A stretch of 63,661 bases of DNA from Sulfurimonadaceae bacterium. GTDB taxonomy: Bacteria > Campylobacterota > Campylobacteria > Campylobacterales > Sulfurimonadaceae. The position numbers were made by a program, and so were the translations under genes. The notes under the pieces are model-generated. The model ran no database searches. It had not been told where the DNA came from and saw only the letters and a program-made list of their open reading frames with translations. The stretch's first letter is position 1; the number at the start of each line of letters is the position of its first letter. The stretch is from NCBI GenBank assembly GCA_028683835.1, contig JAQUHB010000015.1, positions 1-63,661 of the forward strand, written 5' to 3'. Below are positions 32,023 to 43,539 of this stretch, in pieces.

Positions 32023-33138
32023 TTACCAACTAAGCCTAAAGGCAGTGCCTTGGTTTAGTTTGGAATCCACCTCAATTTTTATTCCCGCTTCATCACATAT
32101 TTGTTTGACGATACTGAGTCCCACACCAAAACCACCCGCCTGATTAGAAGCTCTCTCATAAAGATCAAATATCTTCGTCATTTTTTCTTTTGCAATCCCA
32201 ATACCCTCGTCTTGTATGATGAAACTCTCTTTCATCAATGTCAGTTTTATACTCTTATTTGGCATAGAATATTTTATAGCATTAGACAAAAGATTTGAGA
32301 AAAGCAGTTTCGCTCTCTCTTGATCGAGTCTCATAAAAGTATTTTCCAAGCTGGAGATGATTGCTATATTTTTCGCCAAACAGAGCTCGGAGTAAAACTC
32401 TATCACCTCTTTTACTATCTCTTTGAGATTTATCTCCTGCACCTCTTTTGGCTTTGTGGAGAAACTCAGATAGATAAGCGACTGATAGATAGAGTAAAGC
32501 TGTTTAGTGCTGATGGAGATATTTTTGAGTATCTTCTCATCATAGACACCCTTTTGCGTCGCTCTTTTTGCACTCATCTGTAGTGCGGTAATGGGCGTGT
32601 TGAGCTCATGAGAGATATCTTGAATGAAACTCTCTATCTGTACCACTTTTTGATGGATAGGACGCATAAAGAGTTTTGAAAGAAGCAAAGATATCAACAC
32701 GATCACAAAAAAAGCTACCAATCCCACCATGAAAACACTCTTTTGCAAGGCCTCCAGCTTTTTATGATATTCATCTGTTTTTACGACCACATACTCGATA
32801 TTTAAGTGCTCCTGCGCAGAGGAGGAAATTAAAATAGATTTGCCCTTTTCCTTGTAATAACCCTCTTTAAAGTTTTGCTTTTCTCCACTTTTTACCAAAA
32901 AATATTCATATCCCTCTTCAATTTTTGGAAGTTTTAAAACTGTTCCATGCATCTGAGCATTGATAATAAGTCCGCCGATAGTGTCGCTGTAGTGCTGGAG
33001 TTTATAGTAAGTTGTATTTTCCAAACCATTTTTTTGAGCAGTGTAATACCAAAAACTAGAGAGTACCAAAAATAAAAATGAGGAACCGACATAAAGCACC
33101 AAAAAGGAGTAAAAAGATCTTTTTTCCAGACTATTCAA
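32023..33138 (-). CDS. Sensor histidine kinase of the two-component pair
   Basis: Membrane kinase: helix 1 (about 11-31), a periplasmic sensor loop of about 100 residues, helix 2 (about 134-155), a HisKA domain with the phospho-accepting His177 in DISHELNTP, and an HATPase domain with NAIKYS, DEGIGIA and GFGVGLSIVKQI. The TTG start at 33138 overlaps the response regulator's end by 8 bp and has GAGGG upstream; a longer frame is not needed. Neighbouring copper genes and shared promoter repeats suggest a CusS-like role, which is inference. Confidence 0.85.
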   Translation of the reverse strand: MNSLEKRSFYSFLVLYVGSSFLFLVLSSFWYYTAQKNGLENTTYYKLQHYSDTIGGLIINAQMHGTVLKLPKIEEGYEYFLVKSGEKQNFKEGYYKEKGKSILISSSAQEHLNIEYVVVKTDEYHKKLEALQKSVFMVGLVAFFVIVLISLLLSKLFMRPIHQKVVQIESFIQDISHELNTPITALQMSAKRATQKGVYDEKILKNISISTKQLYSIYQSLIYLSFSTKPKEVQEINLKEIVKEVIEFYSELCLAKNIAIISSLENTFMRLDQERAKLLFSNLLSNAIKYSMPNKSIKLTLMKESFIIQDEGIGIAKEKMTKIFDLYERASNQAGGFGVGLSIVKQICDEAGIKIEVDSKLNQGTAFRLSW

Positions 33139-33778
33139 ACTTATATCCCTCGCCTCGGATGTTGATGATATGCTCACGCCCCACATACTTTCTCAGCTCT
33201 TTTATCAATGTTCGTATCGCATCAGATGAAGGCAGTTCCTCATAGTTCCAAAGGTTTTGAAGCAGTTCATCTGTACTGATCACACGATTTTTATGCTTAT
33301 AAAGATAGAGCAGAAGTTCACTCTCTTTTTGGGTGAGATGCTCTGTTTTGTCTTTACATGTAAGCAGATGTGTTTGGGTGTTTAACTCCATTGCATCACC
33401 CAGTTTGACGATGTTAAAAAGTCCAAAATGTCTTTTGATATTTTCAATGCGCCCATACAGCTCTTCGAGGTCAAAAGGCTTGCGGATAAAGTCGTTTGCT
33501 CCGCTTTCAAACGCTTTTTTAAGATAGCTGATATCATGAAAAGCGGTTATAAAAATGGTCGGTGTCTCATCATGGAAACTACGAAGTTCACGCAAAAGAG
33601 TGATACCATCGCCATCAGGAACATTGATGTCGAAGATATAGAGATCGTAGGAGTTCTCTTCGCTCAGTGAGAGCGCCTCTTTCATACTGTATGTATGTGT
33701 CACGCTGTATGTCTCGCTTAAAAAATCTATCAATATACTCGATAAAACGGTGTCATCTTCAAGAAGTAAAATTTTCAT
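33131..33778 (-). CDS. OmpR-family response regulator
   Basis: 215 aa. The receiver domain has acidic residues Glu7, Asp8 and Asp9, the phospho-acceptor Asp50 (IFDINVPDGDG) and a KPFD lysine. The C-terminal winged helix (about 125-215) has LTQKESELLLYLYKHKNRVIS and DAIRTLIKELRKYVG. Paired with the kinase that overlaps its 3' end. It is the best candidate in the window for the factor binding CTCAC direct repeats before copA and the Cus operon. Its own promoter has TATAAT close upstream but no matching repeat that I could find. Confidence 0.9.
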   Translation of the reverse strand: MKILLLEDDTVLSSILIDFLSETYSVTHTYSMKEALSLSEENSYDLYIFDINVPDGDGITLLRELRSFHDETPTIFITAFHDISYLKKAFESGANDFIRKPFDLEELYGRIENIKRHFGLFNIVKLGDAMELNTQTHLLTCKDKTEHLTQKESELLLYLYKHKNRVISTDELLQNLWNYEELPSSDAIRTLIKELRKYVGREHIINIRGEGYKFE

Positions 33779-33955
33779 GAAAATATTATACCGACTCTCC
33801 GTGTAAATTAGGGGTTATCATAATGTTTACAAAGGAACAAAGACACTTACTCACAAAAAATTTTTGTCAAAAGTATTTTGACTTCAGCCTTGCACAATTT
33901 GATACTGCCATAAATAATTTTTTGTAAGAAATTTATAAAATTTCGATCTTTTTGC

Positions 33956-33985
33956 TATAATATCCTATCCCCCTCTATAGGATAT
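33956..33985 (+). promoter_or_regulatory. CsoR/RcnR-type operator overlapping -10 box and ribosome-binding site
   Basis: -10 box TATAAT at 33956-33961 runs into a perfect inverted repeat, ATATCCTAT (33960-33968) and ATAGGATAT (33977-33985), around a C-rich core CCCCCTCT. AT-rich arms around a G/C tract are the hallmark of operators bound by this repressor family. The right arm includes the AGGAT used as ribosome-binding site 6 nt before the regulator's ATG (33989). Strong candidate for autorepression. Confidence 0.75.
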
Positions 33986-33988
33986 AAA

Positions 33989-34258
33989 ATGTCAACACAT
34001 GAATCACATCCGGATATAGTTAAAAGACTAAAACGAGTAGAAGGTCATATAAAAAGTGTAATTAAAATGTTTGAAGAAGAAAAAGGTTGTTTGGATATAG
34101 CTCAACAGCTTCATGCTATTGAAAAAGCTATAAGCAGTGCAAAGAAAACGCTGGTTCATGACCACATCGATCACTGTTTAAATCATGCTATGAGTGATAA
34201 TAAGATTGATAGCAGTGCCGCACTCAAAGAGTTCAAAGATATCACAAAGTATTTGTAA
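33989..34258 (+). CDS. CsoR/RcnR/InrS-family metal-sensing repressor
   Basis: 89-aa all-helical DUF156 protein that releases DNA on binding a metal. Ligand pattern Cys34, His59, Cys63 has the spacing of CsoR (Cys36-His61-Cys65), a copper-sensor set also used by the nickel sensor InrS. Extra histidines occur at positions 4, 7, 57 and 62. RLKRVEGHIKSVIKM is the family's DNA-contact helix. It stands 15 bp before a NicO-family exporter and after a self-operator. Both copper and nickel are plausible; the neighbour favours nickel or cobalt, while the ligands alone would suggest copper. Confidence 0.9.
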   Translation: MSTHESHPDIVKRLKRVEGHIKSVIKMFEEEKGCLDIAQQLHAIEKAISSAKKTLVHDHIDHCLNHAMSDNKIDSSAALKEFKDITKYL

Positions 34259-34273
34259 AAAGGAAAATAAGAG

Positions 34274-35410
34274 ATGGATATTTCAACATTAATCACCAAT
34301 GGAGCCAGTCTTTGGTTACTTCTTCCCAGTGCAATCATTCTAGGTGCACTTCATGGATTAGAACCTGGGCACTCAAAAACTATGATGGCTTCATTTATCA
34401 TCGCTATCAAAGGGACAGTATGGCAAGCCATCATGCTAGGAGTTTCAGCTGCTCTTTCACACACGGCAATAGTCTGGATTATTGCTTTGGCTGGGCTATA
34501 TTTTGGGTCCAAATACAATAATGATGCGATTGAACCATATCTTCAAATCATTTCAGCAGTTATTGTCATAGGTATTGCAGTGTGGATGTTTTATCAAACA
34601 TATAGAAACCAACATGCTTGTTTTCATTCTCATTGTGACGATTCACATGATCATGCTCATCATGATGACCATGATCACCATGATGCAGAGTTTGAGATTA
34701 AAACAAATTATGGTCAATTAAATCTATCCATCTTTGAGCAAAATCAACCGCCAAAATTTAGAATAACTGGAGAAATACTTGGTACTGCAAACTCTGATAG
34801 CATAACTGTAATCACAGATAGAGCTGATGGTAAAACTCAAATCTTTGCATTTAAGACTCATAAAGATTTTTTAGAATCTATTGATGCTATACCTGAACCA
34901 CATGAGTTTGTTGCAAGAGTTCAAATTGTTACTCAAAATGAAAATATCGATACTTATGATATTGAGTTTTTAGAACACAACCACGAGCATGTGCATGAAG
35001 AACTACAAGGACTAGATATAACCTCTCCTGGCTATCAAGATGCCCATGAGCTAGCCCATGCTAATGACATCAGAAAAAGATTTGCCAATAAAGAAGTAAC
35101 AAATTCCCAAATCCTCTTGTTTGGTTTGACTGGTGGGCTTATACCTTGTCCTGCAACCATTACTGTTTTACTTTTATGTCTGCAACTCAAAAAAATAAGT
35201 CTTGGCGTTGCTTTGGTTCTTGGATTTAGTATCGGTTTAGCTTTAACATTGGTCTTAACAGGTGTGGTAGCTGCGTTAAGTGTACATTATATGTCAAAGA
35301 GATTCACAGGATTTGGTGACATAGTAAGAAAAGCACCATATTTTTCAAGTGTTTTAATATTTGGCATAGGCGCCTATCTTGGATATGAGGGATTAATGCA
35401 TTTGCAATAA
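34274..35410 (+). CDS. NicO/RcnA-family nickel-cobalt exporter with His-rich loop and inserted domain
   Basis: 378-aa inner-membrane protein. The first three helices include ALHGLEPGHSKTM, the metal-handling motif, and the C-terminal helices include GGLIPCPATITVLLLC. Between them is a loop beginning with a histidine/aspartate stretch (HSHCDDSHDHAHHDDHDHHD) followed by about 100 residues of beta-rich sequence and a second His cluster (EHNHEHVHEE). E. coli RcnA has a His-rich loop but not such a large extra region. Probably exports nickel or cobalt under control of the repressor just upstream. Confidence 0.88.
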   Translation: MDISTLITNGASLWLLLPSAIILGALHGLEPGHSKTMMASFIIAIKGTVWQAIMLGVSAALSHTAIVWIIALAGLYFGSKYNNDAIEPYLQIISAVIVIGIAVWMFYQTYRNQHACFHSHCDDSHDHAHHDDHDHHDAEFEIKTNYGQLNLSIFEQNQPPKFRITGEILGTANSDSITVITDRADGKTQIFAFKTHKDFLESIDAIPEPHEFVARVQIVTQNENIDTYDIEFLEHNHEHVHEELQGLDITSPGYQDAHELAHANDIRKRFANKEVTNSQILLFGLTGGLIPCPATITVLLLCLQLKKISLGVALVLGFSIGLALTLVLTGVVAALSVHYMSKRFTGFGDIVRKAPYFSSVLIFGIGAYLGYEGLMHLQ

Positions 35411-35418
35411 AATTACTC

Positions 35419-35450
35419 CTCACAAACTTCTCACGAAAGATCAGTATATT
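35419..35450 (+). promoter_or_regulatory. CTCAC direct-repeat promoter before the copA transcript
   Basis: CTCAC at 35419-35423 and 35430-35434 (11-bp period) stand 26 bp before a -10 box TATATT (35445-35450), covering the -35 region. The same arrangement with the same 26-bp distance occurs at 37797, so a shared activator is likely, most simply the OmpR-family regulator at 33131-33778. Confidence 0.65.
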
Positions 35451-35498
35451 TTTACATAAGTAAAAAATCGATGTTCAAATATTTTAAGGGGGTTTGTT

Positions 35499-35624
35499 AT
35501 GCACGAATTTGGCAACTGGGAATTTGGCTGGATTGTTCCCGTACTTTTTATCTTTGCAATTTTTTATTTTATTAATAACAATAGTAATAAAAATGCACCA
35601 CTGGAGGTGTATTGTGAGTCATGA
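35499..35624 (+). CDS. Small membrane protein encoded before copA, 41 aa
   Basis: Begins MHEFGNWEFGWIVPVLFIFA and has one membrane helix (about 10-25), then a short Asn-rich tail (NNNSNKNAPLEVYCES). AAGGGGG lies 6 nt before the ATG. It ends 11 bp inside the copper ATPase gene, so it is translationally coupled to it. Too short for routine gene finders. A regulatory or assembly subunit for the ATPase is possible; no family is recognised. Confidence 0.65.
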   Translation: MHEFGNWEFGWIVPVLFIFAIFYFINNNSNKNAPLEVYCES

Positions 35625-37788
35625 AGAAGAAAATGACAAAAATATTAACTGCATAGATGATTCCTGTAAGTTAGGCAACACTTTTTACACTTGTCCTATG
35701 CATCCTGAAATTATTCGTGATCATCCCGGAAGCTGCCCAATCTGCGGTATGGCACTCGAACCCATGACAGTTCAGGCTGATGAAAACAGTGATGAACAAA
35801 GAGATATGAGCAGAAGATTTTGGATCGCTGTTGCCTTCTCTTTTCCTCTTTTTCTCATAGCGATGCTAAGTGACTTGACTCCTGGGTATTTACCAAGTGC
35901 TATCAATATGAAAGATGTTCAGTGGTTTGAATTCTTGCTCGCCACTCCCGTGGTACTCTGGGGAGGATGGCCTTTTTACGTAAAGGGTTACAACTCGGTA
36001 AAAACATGGAACCTCAATATGTTCACACTGATATCCATGGGCGTGGGCACTGCATATCTTTATAGCTTGATAGCACTTTTTTTTCCTGAGATCTTTCCTC
36101 CAATGATGCAGACAAAAGAGGGTTTGGTACATGTTTATTTTGAAGCGGCTTCTGTCATTACCGCTTTGGTGCTTTTAGGCCAAGTCCTTGAACTCGGAGC
36201 ACGCGGTAAAACAAACAGCGCTATAAAAAATCTGCTCAATCTTGCACCCAAACAAGCTCACCGTATAGAAGACGGCGATGAAAAAGATGTAGACCTTGGA
36301 CTCATCCATGTAGGTGACAAGCTCAGGATTAAACCCGGAGAAAAGATCCCAGTCGATGGGATCGTAATCGAGGGACAAAGCAATCTTGATGAGTCCATGA
36401 TAACAGGAGAACCCATACTGATGAGCAAAAGCAAAGGCGATGCCGTTATAGGAGCGACTATCAACAAAAACGGGACTTTGATCATGGAGGCTCAAAAAGT
36501 CGGCCGAGATACGATGCTCTCTCAAATCGTTGAGATGGTTTCACATGCTCAGCGCTCCCGTGTGCCCATACAACAACTCGCAGACAAAGTCTCCTCTTAC
36601 TTTGTTCCCGCTGTCGTCGTCTCTGCTGTTTTGGCATTCATACTCTGGTGGATTGTTGGACCGCAGCCTCGTTTGGCTTACGCCGTTGTAGCGGCTGTCT
36701 CTGTTTTGATTATCGCCTGTCCATGCGCACTTGGACTTGCGACTCCCATCTCCATTATGGTGGGAACGGGACGCGGGGCACTTATGGGGATACTCATAAA
36801 AGATGCCAAAACTTTAGAGCGTATGGAAAAGGTCAATACTTTAGTCGTCGATAAAACGGGAACGCTCACCGAGGGCAAACCTAAAGTCACTAGTCTCATA
36901 ATCGCAGAGAATTTTGACAAACAAGATATCTTACAACTCGCGGCAAGTTTAGAGCGAGCAAGCGAACATCCGCTTGCAGAAGCAGTCATAAATTATGCAA
37001 AAGAGCATAATACGGCTCTTTTACATGTAGAAAATTTTGAAGCCGTCTTGGGCAAAGGGATAGTTGGTAAGATCGATAGAAAACAGGTGATAATGGGAAG
37101 TCGGGCATTTTTAGAGGATTTTGATATCTTTGTGAAGAATGAAAAAGATAAAGCCGATGCATTCGCAAGTGAGGGAAAAGGGGTTATTTTTATGGCGGTA
37201 GATTCTAAGTTTTGTGCGCTGATCGCTATTGAAGATCCTATCAAACCCACATCTCTCTCTGCACTCAAAACCCTCAAAGAGGATGGAATCAGACTCATTA
37301 TGCTCAGCGGAGACAATGAGACTACCGCAAATGCAGTAGCCAAACATCTCTTTATCGATAAAGTTTATGCAAATGTGATGCCCAATCAAAAAGCCGATAT
37401 CATCAAAAGGCTTCAAAAAGAAGGCGCAATCATAGCGATGGCAGGCGATGGCATAAATGACGCCCCAGCTCTAGCACAAGCAGATGTGGGGATTGCCATG
37501 GGAACGGGCACGGATGTCGCGATCGAGAGTGCCGGGATCACTCTCATCAAAGGCGATCTGCTTGGCATCGTCAAGGTCTTAAAACTCAGCCGTGCCACTA
37601 TGAAAAACATCAGACAAAACCTCTTCTTTGCCTTTGCTTATAATACTTTGGGGATACCATTGGCAGCGGGCGTCCTTTATCCTTTTTTTGGCATCCTGCT
37701 CTCACCCGTGATAGCTGCGGCGGCGATGAGTTTTAGCTCTGTATCTGTGATAACGAACGCTCTTCGCTTAAAAAATTTAAAGATTTAA
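35614..37788 (+). CDS. copA: Copper-exporting P1B-type ATPase
   Basis: 724-aa Cu(I) pump. The N-terminus has a heavy-metal-binding segment with CPMH (27-30) and CPIC (41-44) instead of a classical HMA ferredoxin-like domain. Then come eight helices with the metal site ACPCALGLATP, phosphorylation motif DKTGTLTEG, the SEHPLAEA histidine and GDGINDAPAL. The last helices carry AYNTLGIP and MSFSSVSV, which mark Cu(I) specificity. The GTG start at 35614 has GGAGG 6 nt upstream; the longer frame from 35494 is rejected because it lies in the small upstream gene. Confidence 0.95.
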   Translation: MSHEEENDKNINCIDDSCKLGNTFYTCPMHPEIIRDHPGSCPICGMALEPMTVQADENSDEQRDMSRRFWIAVAFSFPLFLIAMLSDLTPGYLPSAINMKDVQWFEFLLATPVVLWGGWPFYVKGYNSVKTWNLNMFTLISMGVGTAYLYSLIALFFPEIFPPMMQTKEGLVHVYFEAASVITALVLLGQVLELGARGKTNSAIKNLLNLAPKQAHRIEDGDEKDVDLGLIHVGDKLRIKPGEKIPVDGIVIEGQSNLDESMITGEPILMSKSKGDAVIGATINKNGTLIMEAQKVGRDTMLSQIVEMVSHAQRSRVPIQQLADKVSSYFVPAVVVSAVLAFILWWIVGPQPRLAYAVVAAVSVLIIACPCALGLATPISIMVGTGRGALMGILIKDAKTLERMEKVNTLVVDKTGTLTEGKPKVTSLIIAENFDKQDILQLAASLERASEHPLAEAVINYAKEHNTALLHVENFEAVLGKGIVGKIDRKQVIMGSRAFLEDFDIFVKNEKDKADAFASEGKGVIFMAVDSKFCALIAIEDPIKPTSLSALKTLKEDGIRLIMLSGDNETTANAVAKHLFIDKVYANVMPNQKADIIKRLQKEGAIIAMAGDGINDAPALAQADVGIAMGTGTDVAIESAGITLIKGDLLGIVKVLKLSRATMKNIRQNLFFAFAYNTLGIPLAAGVLYPFFGILLSPVIAAAAMSFSSVSVITNALRLKNLKI

Positions 37789-37796
37789 ACGGAGTT

Positions 37797-37828
37797 CTCA
37801 CAAACTCCTCACACTGCCAGACTATAAT
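37797..37828 (+). promoter_or_regulatory. CTCAC direct-repeat promoter before the Cus-type operon
   Basis: CTCAC at 37797-37801 and 37808-37812 (11-bp period) lie 26 bp before a perfect TATAAT (37823-37828). Eleven of the twelve bases TCTCACAAACTC match the copA promoter copy. Probable activator site. Confidence 0.68.
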
Positions 37829-37852: not shown

Positions 37853-38233
37853 ATGAAAAAGCTTCTAAAAATATTGACTCTCTTGGTTTTAAGCGTCTCT
37901 CTGCTTCAAGCTGCGGCGTTTGAAAAAACAGCAAACGGCGGCGGTGTCACAGCTGTTATCAGTTCGGACAAACCACTCACTACGGGAAACAATACCTTAC
38001 ATGTAAGCATCAAAGACCCTCAGTATAAAGATGCCGCGGTAGCTCTGAAAGTATTTATGCCTGAGATGCCGGGAATGCCTCCTATGGAGATGCAGAGCAA
38101 TGCAAAAGCTATGGGCAACGGCATCTATAAAACAGATATCAACTTTTCTATGAGCGGGACGTGGCAGGTTTGGATCTTCATAACTCCAAAAAGCGGACAA
38201 AAAGTGCGTATAAAAACCTCTTTGAATATCTAA
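37853..38233 (+). CDS. YtkA/FixH-like periplasmic protein with Met-rich loop
   Basis: 126 aa with a signal peptide (MKKLLKILTLLVLSVSLLQA) and an immunoglobulin-like beta fold (TGNNTLHVSIKDP, GIYKTDINFSMSGTWQVWIFI). A methionine-rich loop, MPEMPGMPPMEM, is a likely Cu(I) binding site. First gene of the operon that continues with TolC-, CusB- and CusA-like genes, 9 bp before the next start. Proposed periplasmic copper-handling protein, perhaps replacing CusF; inferred. Confidence 0.8.
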   Translation: MKKLLKILTLLVLSVSLLQAAAFEKTANGGGVTAVISSDKPLTTGNNTLHVSIKDPQYKDAAVALKVFMPEMPGMPPMEMQSNAKAMGNGIYKTDINFSMSGTWQVWIFITPKSGQKVRIKTSLNI

Positions 38234-38242
38234 AGAGGTCTC

Positions 38243-39436
38243 ATGAAAACTCTTCTATTATGGCTTGGAGTCGCGACTTTTTTACAGGCGCAGACTCTTG
38301 ACGCGCTTATCACTCGCTCATTACAAAATCATGGTTCACTCAAGAGTATAGAGCAGCGTCTTGAAGCACTGGAGAATGAAAAAGAGATCTCAAGGAACTT
38401 CTCAGATCCGGAGGTCTCCCTCACTATCAACGATATCCAGTTTAAAAACCCTACAGACCGTACACTCGAGCCGATGCAGTTTAGTTCTCTCAACATCAAA
38501 CAAAAGATCCCCTATTTTGGAAAACGCGACGCGCAGACACAGATGGTCGAGTCACAAAAAAAGTTGCTAAACATGGGGCTTGGAGCTTTAAAAACTGAAC
38601 TTGCAAAAGAGATGAGAATAACCGCATATTCTATCTGGCAAAACGAACAGGAACTTCATATCATCGATAGCAGTATCGATATCATCAAACAGACTATCTC
38701 CCTTAATGAAGCTTACTACATCACCTCAGGCAATACCCAAGAGGTTTTGATGAATGCAGAGCTTTCCCTCAGTGAACAGAAGATAAAAAGAAACTCTCTT
38801 CTAAGCGAGCAAAACGCTCTGTATGAAAAGCTCTCCTATCTTGCAGGTGAAAAGATAGAAAATCTTGAACTCTCTCTAAGCGTCCAAGAGCCAAAAACTC
38901 TTTCGTTTTACCAAGAGAAAGTAGGAGATTCAAGTGCCTTACATGTAAAGGATGCAGAACTAGGTATTGCGAAGTCAGACCTTCACATCAAAGAGCTCTC
39001 ACAAAAAATCGACCCTTTCATCCAAGCGGGATACTATTACAGAGAGAACCATCCCGACTATGCAGCCATAACCGTAGGCGCTTCTTTACCGCTTTATGGA
39101 ACACAAAAGGCAAGCGAAGAGGAAGCGAAAAAACTGCTTCTTGCCAAAGGTTTTGAAGAGAGCGATTTAAAAGAAAAGCTCAACTCAGAGATAGCACAGC
39201 TCTATGAAAAGATGCGAAATGACTACTTAAGCTACAAAATCCTCAGCGATGAATCGATGCCGAAAGTGGAACATCTTTTTGAGTTGGCTCAAAGTTCGGC
39301 AAAGAGTAAAGACTCATTTTTAGAGTATCTAGGAATGCTGAGTAAAAAACTTAAACTTCAAGAGGAGCTTATCAAAGTGACAGCCGATTTCAACAAAACT
39401 CACGCATCCCTTCTTGCGCTCACAGGAGACAAATAA
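38243..39436 (+). CDS. TolC/CusC-family outer membrane efflux protein
   Basis: 397 aa with signal peptide (MKTLLLWLGVATFLQA) and long helical hairpins of the outer membrane efflux family (SLQNHGSLKSIEQRLEALENE, AIYSIWQNEQELHII-like stretches). It forms the outer duct for the adaptor and pump encoded next. The stop codon overlaps the following ATG by one base (TAATG). There is an exact TTACATGTAA in its coding region. Confidence 0.88.
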   Translation: MKTLLLWLGVATFLQAQTLDALITRSLQNHGSLKSIEQRLEALENEKEISRNFSDPEVSLTINDIQFKNPTDRTLEPMQFSSLNIKQKIPYFGKRDAQTQMVESQKKLLNMGLGALKTELAKEMRITAYSIWQNEQELHIIDSSIDIIKQTISLNEAYYITSGNTQEVLMNAELSLSEQKIKRNSLLSEQNALYEKLSYLAGEKIENLELSLSVQEPKTLSFYQEKVGDSSALHVKDAELGIAKSDLHIKELSQKIDPFIQAGYYYRENHPDYAAITVGASLPLYGTQKASEEEAKKLLLAKGFEESDLKEKLNSEIAQLYEKMRNDYLSYKILSDESMPKVEHLFELAQSSAKSKDSFLEYLGMLSKKLKLQEELIKVTADFNKTHASLLALTGDK

Positions 39437-40422
39437 TGAAATATCTCACACTTTTACTGCTCTTACATGTAAGCATATTTGCAAAAGATGCGACCGTAAA
39501 ACAGCTCTTTAACGTGCAGACCGTCAAAGTCAAAACAACAAATGCATCTATGAGCCAAAAATATTACGGTTATGTTAAAGAGGATGACTCAAAAGTCTAT
39601 GATGTGAGTCCGAGATTTGATGGCTATATCGAAGAGCTCAAAGCGAATAAAACTTATATGTACGTTCAAAAAGGCACACTCTTAGCAACGGTTTACTCAC
39701 CTGAAGTGCTGCGTGCAAAAGAGGAGTATCTCAGCATCTACAGTTTTACCAAAAAATTTCCAAACAAGGCGATGGTAGAGAGTGCAAAAGAGAGGCTCAC
39801 ACTCTTAGGCGTAAATCCTAAAGAGATAGAGATGATAGAAAAAGAGGGCAAGACCTCACGCACGACAAATATTTACGCACCAGAGAGCGGATATATCTTT
39901 GAAAAAAGCGTTACAAGCGGTTCGGCGTTTTCTATAAGACAAAACCTCTTTAAGATAGTCAATCTCTCAAATGTCTGGGTCGAAGTCGCCATCTATCCTC
40001 AAGATTATGAGCTCATCTCCAAACTAAACGATTTTCTCATCAGCTCTCCCGCTGGAAATTTTAAAGCGAAAAAAGAGATGCTCTATCCAAGAGTCAGTGC
40101 AAAAGATGCGCCTTTTACACTTCGAGTCAGTGTACAAAATCCAAAAGGAAAACTCATAGGCGGAATGTATGTGAGCGTGAGTGCAGATACGAAAAAAGAG
40201 AGCACGCTCACTTTGCCATCCTCTGCGGTTATCTTTAAAAACGGCAAATATTATGTGTTTATAAAAGGGGAATACCAAGGGGAATATGAACCTCGCGTCA
40301 TCGAAGCAAAAGAGCTAGATGCCAACACTTACAGTGTCAAAGGTCTTCAAAACGGCGACGAAGTGGTCAATAACGCGCTCTTTATGATGGACAGCGACGC
40401 TCAGATAAACGGTCTGTATTAG
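39436..40422 (+). CDS. CusB-like RND periplasmic adaptor
   Basis: 328 aa with signal peptide (MKYLTLLLLLHVSIFA). The lipoyl-like motifs (SPRFDGYIEELKAN, IYAPESGYIFEKSVTSGSAF), the helical hairpin (AKEEYLSIYSF) and beta-barrel (LRVSVQNPKGKLIGGMYVSV) are in the usual order. It joins the CusA-like pump to the outer-membrane channel. Shorter than E. coli CusB (407 aa), lacking the N-terminal Met-rich extension. The signal peptide itself includes the LHVS codon phase of the TTACATGTAA motif. Confidence 0.88.
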   Translation: MKYLTLLLLLHVSIFAKDATVKQLFNVQTVKVKTTNASMSQKYYGYVKEDDSKVYDVSPRFDGYIEELKANKTYMYVQKGTLLATVYSPEVLRAKEEYLSIYSFTKKFPNKAMVESAKERLTLLGVNPKEIEMIEKEGKTSRTTNIYAPESGYIFEKSVTSGSAFSIRQNLFKIVNLSNVWVEVAIYPQDYELISKLNDFLISSPAGNFKAKKEMLYPRVSAKDAPFTLRVSVQNPKGKLIGGMYVSVSADTKKESTLTLPSSAVIFKNGKYYVFIKGEYQGEYEPRVIEAKELDANTYSVKGLQNGDEVVNNALFMMDSDAQINGLY

Positions 40423-40428
40423 GAACTG

Positions 40429-43400
40429 ATGATGATAGAAAAACTCATAGCCCTCAGTGTAAAAAACAGATTTTTACTCCTGATCTTCACACTCTTTATC
40501 ATCGGGGCTTCTGTGTGGTCTATCAAAAATACCGCGCTTGACGCACTGCCGGACATCTCCCCTCCGCAAGTAATTTTGCAGATAAAATGGGCAGGACAAT
40601 CGCCCCAGATCATCGAAAAACAGGGGACGTATCCGCTTGTCACCGCTCTTCTTTCGACTCCAAACGTCAAGACGGTACGAGGCTTTTCAAGCTATGAAAA
40701 TGGACTTATCTATATCATCTTCAAAGAGGGAACCGATATCTATAAAGCCCGAAGCAGAGTCCTAGAACAGCTCTCTTCCATCGGCTCGAGCCTTCCTGCA
40801 AATATGCAGGTCTCACTTGGACCTGATGCAAGCGGTGTGGGCTGGGTATATGAGTATGCTCTCACATCAAAAACTAAAAATCTCGCAGAGCTTCGAACTC
40901 TACAGGACTACTACTATAAAAACGCGCTTCTTGGCGTAGACGGTGTAAGTGAAGTGGCATCCATCGGCGGATTTGTCCCCTCATATCAAGTCACGGTCAA
41001 AAATGAGATGCTTGTGCATTACAATCTTGGGATCGAAGATATCGTCCAGACGCTCAAACAAAACAACAATGACACGGGCGGAAGAGTCATCAACAAAAAC
41101 GGCTATGAATGGATGGTTCAGGCAAAAGGGTACGTTAATGACCTCAGTGACATCCGAAATCTAAGCATCACGACCAAAAACGGTATCCCTCTGACTATCG
41201 GCGATATCGCAAGAGTGGAAGTGGTTCCCGCTTCAAGACGAGGGATGGCCGACCTTAACGGTGAGGGCGAAGTCGTAGGCGGAATCGTGATAGTGCGATA
41301 CGGCGCGGATGTCTACAAAACGATTCAAAATGTAAAGAAAAAACTCTCGCAGCTTAAATCCGGCGACGTCAAGATCACGACCACCTATGACAGATCGAGT
41401 CTTATAGATAAAGCGGTCGATACGCTCAAACATACACTTTATGAAGAGTCGATCATCGTTATCATCGTCATCGCTCTGTTTTTGATGCATCTGCGAAGTT
41501 CTCTTATCCTTTTGATCGTCTTGCCGATTACGGTGGGCGTGACCTTTTTACTGATGAAACTCTTTGGTATCGGCTCAAATATCATGAGTCTTGGCGGTAT
41601 CGCCATTGCCATCGGTGCGATGGTCGATGCTTCCATCATCATGATAGAAAACGCTCATCAGACACTTCATAAACTTCAAGAAAAGGGAGCGGTCACTAAA
41701 AAAGAGCGCATCGATGCCATCATCGAGTCATCCCAGCTTGTGGGACGTCCTATCTTCTTTGCACTTATTCTCGTCGTTGTCTCGTTTTTACCGATATTTT
41801 CCCTAAGCGGACAAGAGGGGATGCTTTTCTCGCCCCTAGCATTTACCAAGACCTTTGCCATGAGTGCGGGAGCAATTCTCTCAATCACACTTGTGCCTGT
41901 ACTGATGATCTATTTTCTAGGAGGTAAGATCCCCTCAGAAGAGAAAAACTTTTTAAACAGATTTTTCACCTTTGCCTACCATCCATTTTTAATATATGGA
42001 TTGAAACTCAAATATGGCGTTTTACTTTTGCTTATCCTTTCTTTGGCATCAATATATCCGCTTTACAACGCGCTTAAATGGGAGTTTATGCCAACATTAA
42101 ATGAAGAGACCTTTATGTATATGCCCGTTACACCCTATGGCACAAGTATCGATATGAGTAAAGAGCTCGCGCAAAGAACGGATGCCATTATCAAAAGCTT
42201 TCCGGAAGTCCAGAGCGTTTTTGGCAAAGGGGGACGCGCCGATAGTGCGACTGATCCTGCACCTCTTGGGATGCTTGAAACCATCATCACTCTCAAACCG
42301 CAAAGCGAGTGGCCAAAAGGGATGAGCTATAAAAAGCTTCAAGACGAGATGGAAAATGCCTTACATGTAAGCGGTCTTGTAAACTCTTGGACCTATCCTA
42401 TCAAAGGGCGCATCGATATGCTTCTTAGCGGAATCCGCACGCCTATTGGGATAAAACTCTACGGCGACGATGCCAAAAAACTGCAGTTTTATGCAACTCA
42501 GATAGAGCAGACACTAAGGGCTGAAGATATGACAATGTCTGTTTTTGCCGATAAAGCCACGGCTGGATATTACCTCAACATCGAGATTAACGAAGAGGCG
42601 CTCAAACGTTATGGCATCTCAAAAGAGACTCTGCTCTCCTATACCTCATTTGCCATCGGCGGAGCAAAAGTCTCGACGATGTATAACGGCTTAGAGCGCT
42701 ATGCAATCACCATGAGGCTCTCTGATGATGAACGCAATTCACTATCCTCGATTCAAAACATCATGATAAAAACACCGCTTGGATTTATGCCGTTTCGTAC
42801 CTTTGCGACACTTTCTTATAAAGAGAGTCCATCTATCATCAAAAGCGAGATGGCTCTTCCTGTGACCTACATCTATATCACTCCAAAAGAGGGTGTCAGT
42901 TCGACGCAGTACAAAGAAAGAGCAAAAGAGCTCTTAAAAAATATCAAACTCCCAGATGGATACTATATGCAGTTTGCAGGAGAGAGTGAGTACCTTGAAT
43001 CAGCACTTGCTAAGATGGTGTGGATTATTCCTGCTGTCATACTTATCGTGCTTGTGCTTATCTATTTCGCACTTAGAGATGTTACCGCGTCTTTGATAGT
43101 GTTTTTCACTCTTCCGTTTGCTCTTTTGGGCGGACTGATTTATATGCAGATGTTGCATTTTAGTATGAGCATCGCCGTGATTGTCGGATTTTTGGCACTT
43201 CTGGGTATTGCCTCGGAATCTGCCATCGTGATGATCGTGTATCTGCAGGAGAGTGTCAAAAACTCGTTAGAAAAATATGGGGAGGACTTTGATGCACAAA
43301 ATCTCAAAGATGCTATCTATGATGGAGCCATTAGAAGACTCCGCCCCAAACTCATGACAGTATTTGCCATCATTGCAGGGCTCTTGCCGATCATGTATTC

Positions 43401-43539
43401 GGATGGTGTGGGAAGCGAGATCATGCAGCGCATCGCAGCGCCGATGATAGGTGGGATCGTGAGTTCATCGGTGCTGAGTCTGCTGATAATCCCCATACTC
43501 TATGAGATCTATATCAAACGAAAAAACTTGAGAAAATAG
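40429..43539 (+). CDS. cusA: CusA-type heavy-metal RND transporter
   Basis: 1036-aa inner-membrane proton-driven pump of the HME-RND class. Twelve helices, with charged residues in the central helix region (GGIAIAIGAMVDASIIMIENAH) and FSLSGQEGMLFSPLAFTKTFAM, both diagnostic of the heavy-metal subgroup. RIDMLLSGIRTPIGIKLYG carries a periplasmic methionine in the position used for Cu(I)/Ag(I) by CusA. Two adjacent ATGs; AGGA stands 4 nt before the first and 7 nt before the second. Final gene of the ytkA-like/tolC/cusB/cusA operon; copper or silver efflux is the likely role. Confidence 0.93.
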   Translation: MMIEKLIALSVKNRFLLLIFTLFIIGASVWSIKNTALDALPDISPPQVILQIKWAGQSPQIIEKQGTYPLVTALLSTPNVKTVRGFSSYENGLIYIIFKEGTDIYKARSRVLEQLSSIGSSLPANMQVSLGPDASGVGWVYEYALTSKTKNLAELRTLQDYYYKNALLGVDGVSEVASIGGFVPSYQVTVKNEMLVHYNLGIEDIVQTLKQNNNDTGGRVINKNGYEWMVQAKGYVNDLSDIRNLSITTKNGIPLTIGDIARVEVVPASRRGMADLNGEGEVVGGIVIVRYGADVYKTIQNVKKKLSQLKSGDVKITTTYDRSSLIDKAVDTLKHTLYEESIIVIIVIALFLMHLRSSLILLIVLPITVGVTFLLMKLFGIGSNIMSLGGIAIAIGAMVDASIIMIENAHQTLHKLQEKGAVTKKERIDAIIESSQLVGRPIFFALILVVVSFLPIFSLSGQEGMLFSPLAFTKTFAMSAGAILSITLVPVLMIYFLGGKIPSEEKNFLNRFFTFAYHPFLIYGLKLKYGVLLLLILSLASIYPLYNALKWEFMPTLNEETFMYMPVTPYGTSIDMSKELAQRTDAIIKSFPEVQSVFGKGGRADSATDPAPLGMLETIITLKPQSEWPKGMSYKKLQDEMENALHVSGLVNSWTYPIKGRIDMLLSGIRTPIGIKLYGDDAKKLQFYATQIEQTLRAEDMTMSVFADKATAGYYLNIEINEEALKRYGISKETLLSYTSFAIGGAKVSTMYNGLERYAITMRLSDDERNSLSSIQNIMIKTPLGFMPFRTFATLSYKESPSIIKSEMALPVTYIYITPKEGVSSTQYKERAKELLKNIKLPDGYYMQFAGESEYLESALAKMVWIIPAVILIVLVLIYFALRDVTASLIVFFTLPFALLGGLIYMQMLHFSMSIAVIVGFLALLGIASESAIVMIVYLQESVKNSLEKYGEDFDAQNLKDAIYDGAIRRLRPKLMTVFAIIAGLLPIMYSDGVGSEIMQRIAAPMIGGIVSSSVLSLLIIPILYEIYIKRKNLRK

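Follow-up and report, generated by a model that had tools for sequence, protein, structure and literature searches.

In the 63,661 nucleotide stretch of Sulfurimonadaceae DNA analysed here (the window), the two copper promoters carry the same direct repeat, CTCAC-N6-CTCAC, at the same distance from the -10 hexamer. These repeats are very probably the sites of the OmpR/PhoB-type response regulator encoded at 33131-33778, which, with its partner kinase (32023-33186), is predicted to activate copA and the crdAB-cusBA operon on copper. The site, its spacing, its uniqueness in the genome, its conservation, the copper nature of the downstream genes and the genetic association with the regulator are all direct observations. 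The features concerned are the following.

32023-33186, minus strand: partner histidine kinase (coordinates of the frame, which overlaps the end of the regulator gene); profile match and periplasmic loop motifs
33131-33778, minus strand: OmpR/PhoB-family response regulator, predicted binder of both sites; PF00072 and PF00486, comparison of orthologues, tree
35419-35434, plus strand: direct repeat CTCAC-N6-CTCAC, predicted activator site of the copA transcript; from the sequence, with an equivalent site before SHOCT-copA in the sister genome G002
35445-35450, plus strand: predicted -10 hexamer TATATT of the copA transcript; from the sequence, without a sigma-70 -35
35499-35624, plus strand: small membrane ORF of 41 amino acids, first gene of the copA transcript, without the SHOCT tail found in relatives
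35614-37788 (start approximate), plus strand: copA, Cu(I) P1B-type ATPase with HMBD domain and CPC motif; TIGR01511 above cut-off
37797-37812, plus strand: direct repeat CTCAC-N6-CTCAC, predicted activator site of the crdA operon; from the sequence, conserved before crdA orthologues
37823-37828, plus strand: predicted -10 hexamer TATAAT of the crdA operon; from the sequence, no same-strand -35 match
37853-38233, plus strand: crdA-like YtkA-family periplasmic protein with the Met motif FMPEMPGMPPMEM, as in H. pylori CrdA
38243-39436, plus strand: crdB, outer-membrane efflux protein (OEP); profile match
39436-40422, plus strand: cusB/czcB-like adaptor; profile matches
40429-43539, plus strand: cusA/czcA-like HME-RND pump; TIGR00914 above cut-off

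The first repeat, CTCACAAACTTCTCAC, occupies 35419-35434 and is followed by TATATT at 35445-35450; the second, CTCACAAACTCCTCAC, lies at 37797-37812 in front of TATAAT at 37823-37828. The distance from start to start is 26 bp at both promoters, exactly the identical layout described in the first-pass annotation of this DNA. The two 16-mers share 15 of 16 bases, with a single difference. The 10 bp spacers 3' of them agree at about one base in ten (judged by eye), and this dissimilarity indicates that the second promoter is not simply a copy of the first. No sigma-70 -35 hexamer was detected on the plus strand of either promoter, unlike the csoR promoter, which has a good one. PhoB-type class II activators have this arrangement, a direct repeat of one-turn spacing whose end lies 10 bp from the -10.

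The same annotation had placed the first site before the copA transcript, which holds with the correction that the 41-codon ORF (35499-35624) comes first and copA, starting at about 35614, follows. The SHOCT tail of the corresponding genes in relatives is missing from this ORF, and about 100 bp appear to have been lost from the window at this point. The second site precedes a four-gene operon for a YtkA/CrdA protein, an outer-membrane factor, a CusB-like adaptor and a CusA/CzcA pump; the FMPEMPGMPPMEM sequence of the CrdA-like protein closely resembles the methionine motif known from H. pylori CrdA (PMC9182242).

The pattern was counted in the host genome (2.51 Mb) with the reversed pattern as control. 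Exact CTCAC-N6-CTCAC occurs three times, the third copy lying within a coding frame. With the -10 included (YTCAC-N6-YTCAC-N10-TANNNT), two sites were found in the 2.51 Mb, the copA and the crdA promoter, and none with the control; the repeat might have been equally frequent at random sites, a possibility raised in the first-pass annotation, but the full layout proved unique to the two copper promoters genome-wide. When one mismatch was allowed in the full layout, 11 sites were obtained against 21 in the control, which is background, so that the signal resides in the exact matches. Within the window the two 16-mers are the only matches with at most one mismatch; since the bare 16-mer is thereby at chance level (2 found, 2.2 expected), the significance of the repeat comes from its exactness together with the spacing.

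Sixty relatives were searched with CrdA, and the DNA upstream of crdA was read. In members of the genus and of the family crdA is preceded by this repeat, with an unchanged distance to the -10. The pattern CAC-N8-CAC-N9..11-TANNNT was present before 29 of 34 Campylobacterota crdA genes (non-identical upstream regions; mean of the shuffled sequences 0.08). The opposite strand of these 34 regions gave 3 matches, and among the other ORFs of the crdA loci 23 of 507 upstream regions matched. An alignment of 16 promoters showed the half-sites TCACA and TCAC to be invariant and the -10 nearly so. Within the GTDB family that contains a Helicobacter record, a set that presumably includes H. pylori itself, 29 of 30 crdA promoters had CAC-N8-CAC-N10-TANNNT, as TCCACAATTTTTACACA or close variants with equal spacing, and several of the CrdA proteins carry the H. 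pylori MMxEMPGM motif.

A pattern scan of the 60 relatives, made independently of gene content, yielded 46 sites (control 11) in the 20 family genomes with an orthologue of the regulator and 15 (control 8) in the 17 family genomes without one, the window's own genome being included in these family counts. About half of the 46 sites, counted by hand from the neighbourhoods, stand directly before copper genes, and the remainder surely contains some chance sites or sites of other regulators. The copper genes behind the sites are crdA/crdB, copA, SHOCT-copA, DUF302 genes of the same operons and multicopper oxidases, the sites of the last (G005, G014) being on contigs separate from the crd cluster. 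On one contig (G013:C94; L101, L253) eight strict sites within about 19 kb precede copA, crdA, DUF302, a membrane protein, a lipoprotein and an outer-membrane-like protein. The strict YTCAC pair was not found in the regulator-bearing genomes G008, G016, G028 and G030, and divergent half-sites also occur. Four CTCACTAnTnACTCACTT sites with a -10 in G003 (C17, C28, C49) are clearly the box of another regulator, and the TTCAC-N6-TTCAC sites with -10 boxes on several contigs of G042 (six) and G059 (three) are possibly DccR-type regulons.

The protein encoded at 33131-33778 has a receiver domain (PF00072) and a winged-helix Trans_reg_C domain (PF00486), both above cut-off, and residues D8, D9, D50 and K100 (phospho-acceptor aspartate, acidic pocket) are invariant across 19 orthologues. 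It scored 92.9 bits with the CusR/CopR/SilR profile TIGR01387, below the cut-off of 279.2, and 87.6 bits with NCBIfam CreB, one of its weak profile matches, far below the cut-off of 273; its best structural relatives in the PDB include BasR/PmrA. In the periplasmic loop of the kinase A-x-M and EHL motifs are conserved within its clade, and are not evident in two DccS-like kinases of the same alignment; our guess is that these motifs bind copper. Regulator and kinase had been put 2 kb upstream in the earlier annotation. They do form an adjoining pair, but 1.64 kb separate the first site from the start codon of the regulator (33778, minus strand). A minus-strand TATAAT at 33785-33790 is kept in relatives in which the copper site abuts it and, as it lies only 6 bp before this start codon, suggests a regulator mRNA with a very short leader.

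Linkage, divergent promoters, joint presence and absence and covariation of the half-sites point to the neighbouring regulator as the binder. In four relatives (G003, G004, G007, G018) crdA and the regulator orthologue diverge, about 67-87 bp apart, and the repeat lies in between, its second half-site being degenerate (CTCACAAACACCACAC) in G018. Within the family, regulator (at least 50% identity) and crdA occurred together in 18 genomes, crdA alone in 2, the regulator alone in 1 and neither in 15 (Fisher p 3.6e-7, shared ancestry ignored). In G009 and G023, which have crdA and no regulator, crdA is also without the site; G032, the assembly of which is 83% complete, has the copA site and no clear orthologue of the regulator. 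The first half-site is YTCAC in 10 of 12 crdA promoters belonging to the regulator's clade and in 0 of 10 outside it (Fisher p 1e-4, shared ancestry ignored), where TGCAC, TCCAC or TACAC was found, and this change accompanies a change in the recognition helix (R-T-x-x-K versus R-S-H-I-R and others). In the sister genome G002 a third site stands ahead of a gene group ending in regulator and kinase, which suggests that the regulator is autoregulated there. This third copper site lies in the gap between csoR and the regulator (L091:2031-2940), and behind it come the genes for a Met/Cys/His-rich secreted peptide and for a DUF302 protein; positions 33779-33988 of the window miss about 700 bp of this stretch, and both flanks align. 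The copper regulon and binding site predicted in the first-pass annotation were upheld in every comparative test that was run. That annotation mentions neither the correspondence of crdA-cusBA to the operon under CrdRS control in H. pylori nor the nearby operator of a CsoR-type repressor.

Alternatively, the sites could be those of another OmpR-type regulator with its gene elsewhere in the genome, such as a DccR-like protein reading TTCAC-N6-TTCAC. The genome does encode two further OmpR-type regulators (34-39% identity), and another kind of TTCAC-N6-TTCAC site exists in relatives and in C. jejuni. However, the linkage and the divergent shared promoter favour the neighbouring regulator, site and regulator were lost together, the half-sites covary with the clade of the linked regulator, and the C. 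jejuni-type regulators form a separate clade. We therefore consider a distant regulator improbable.

Upstream of the first site the plus strand encodes a CsoR-family repressor (33989-34258) followed by a NicO transporter (34274-35410), so that copA might be mainly under control of this repressor next door, with the repeat before copA being incidental; read-through from csoR-nicO into copA is possible, as the end of nicO is 8 bp from the site. A CsoR-type operator, ATATCCTAT-N8-ATAGGATAT, was found at 33960-33985, where it overlaps the csoR-nicO -10. A Cys-His-Cys fingerprint is present in the repressor, yet the neighbouring gene encodes a Ni/Co-type transporter. Nothing similar to this inverted repeat was found at copA or crdA, and with the repeat confined to the csoR-nicO promoter CsoR was rejected as the common regulator of the two. 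The copA-type site, moreover, recurs in relatives, and control of copA mainly by CsoR is very improbable. Chance similarity or a recently duplicated promoter is hardly credible at all, for although within the window the bare 16-mer, one mismatch being allowed, is not uncommon, the layout with its spacing is unique in the genome (2 versus 0 in the control), is conserved across the order (29/34 and 29/30) and has dissimilar 10 bp spacers.

Under the preferred reading, activation by the neighbouring regulator, we infer binding, phosphorylation, copper as the signal and activation as follows. Periplasmic copper would activate the kinase (32023-33186), and the phosphorylated regulator would dimerise and sit head-to-tail on the two 5 bp half-sites, one helical turn (11 bp) apart. 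The bound dimer would stand in for the absent -35 element, contact the sigma factor and switch on copA, for export of cytoplasmic Cu(I), and crdAB-cusBA, for periplasmic efflux.

More generally, a single copper box, consisting of two CAC-centred half-sites 11 bp apart and placed 10 bp ahead of the -10, is likely to be conserved in most of the sampled Campylobacterota. Its outer letters would have co-evolved with the regulator, and in the Sulfurimonadaceae one two-component regulon would comprise copA, crdAB-cusBA, multicopper oxidases and the DUF302 and SHOCT proteins. The literature searched, mostly papers available without subscription, yielded no published binding consensus for a regulator of this type from Sulfurimonadaceae. 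The analysis offers a position-specific prediction of the site of a copper regulator for a whole bacterial group, including relatives of H. pylori, in which CrdRS is important for colonisation. Uncharacterised genes (DUF302, SHOCT proteins, the Met/Cys/His-rich secreted peptide) become predicted members of the copper regulon, and the natural series of half-sites, matched to clades of the regulator, could help to decode the DNA choice of OmpR-type proteins.

Among known systems CrdRS of H. pylori resembles the present one, as judged from sequence, in both operon and promoter architecture. The operon order is the same (crdAB-czcBA, encoding CrdA with an M-x-EMPGM-xx-M motif, CrdB, CzcB and CzcA), as is the combination of an OmpR-type regulator and a kinase, and the crdA promoters of the Helicobacter family have TCCACA-N5-TACACA-type repeats with the 11 bp period and the -10 distance seen in the window. 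Waidner et al. in 2005 reportedly found that a 21 bp sequence near the crdA promoter is needed for CrdR binding. The half-sites differ (CCACA/ACACA in Helicobacter, CTCAC in the window), and the regulator, linked to crdA in the window, is encoded at a distance from it by H. pylori (hp1365 versus hp1326). The tree places the Helicobacter candidates in a sister group of the window's clade, together with DccR and with further regulators linked to crdA. Copper induction of H. pylori crdAB-czcBA through CrdRS has been demonstrated experimentally (PMC12319023); H. pylori copA has been assigned to CopP (PMC4557348), whereas in the window copA falls within the predicted regulon.

TTCAC sites with a -10 were found in a C. 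jejuni genome. A regulator encoded there is 43% identical to that of the window, and we take its locus to be DccR from a second regulator about 3 kb away. C. jejuni DccRS has a TTCAC-N6-TTCAC direct repeat before its targets. It is unlinked to copper genes, however, and the window's regulator belongs to a separate, supported clade; DccRS has been reviewed as controlling a growth-phase regulon (PMC9449129). The cre/blr-tag TTCAC-N6-TTCAC of E. coli CreBC and Aeromonas BlrAB has the half-site length and 11 bp period of the window's repeat (PMC3660660). The half-site itself, the targets and the regulator are different. PhoB/PmrA-type activators use tandem direct repeats that are spaced by one turn and take the place of the -35, about 10 bp ahead of the -10; they differ from the window's system in half-sites and signals. 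The system is thus of a known kind, similar to CrdRS in operon and promoter architecture, and has a wider predicted regulon here.
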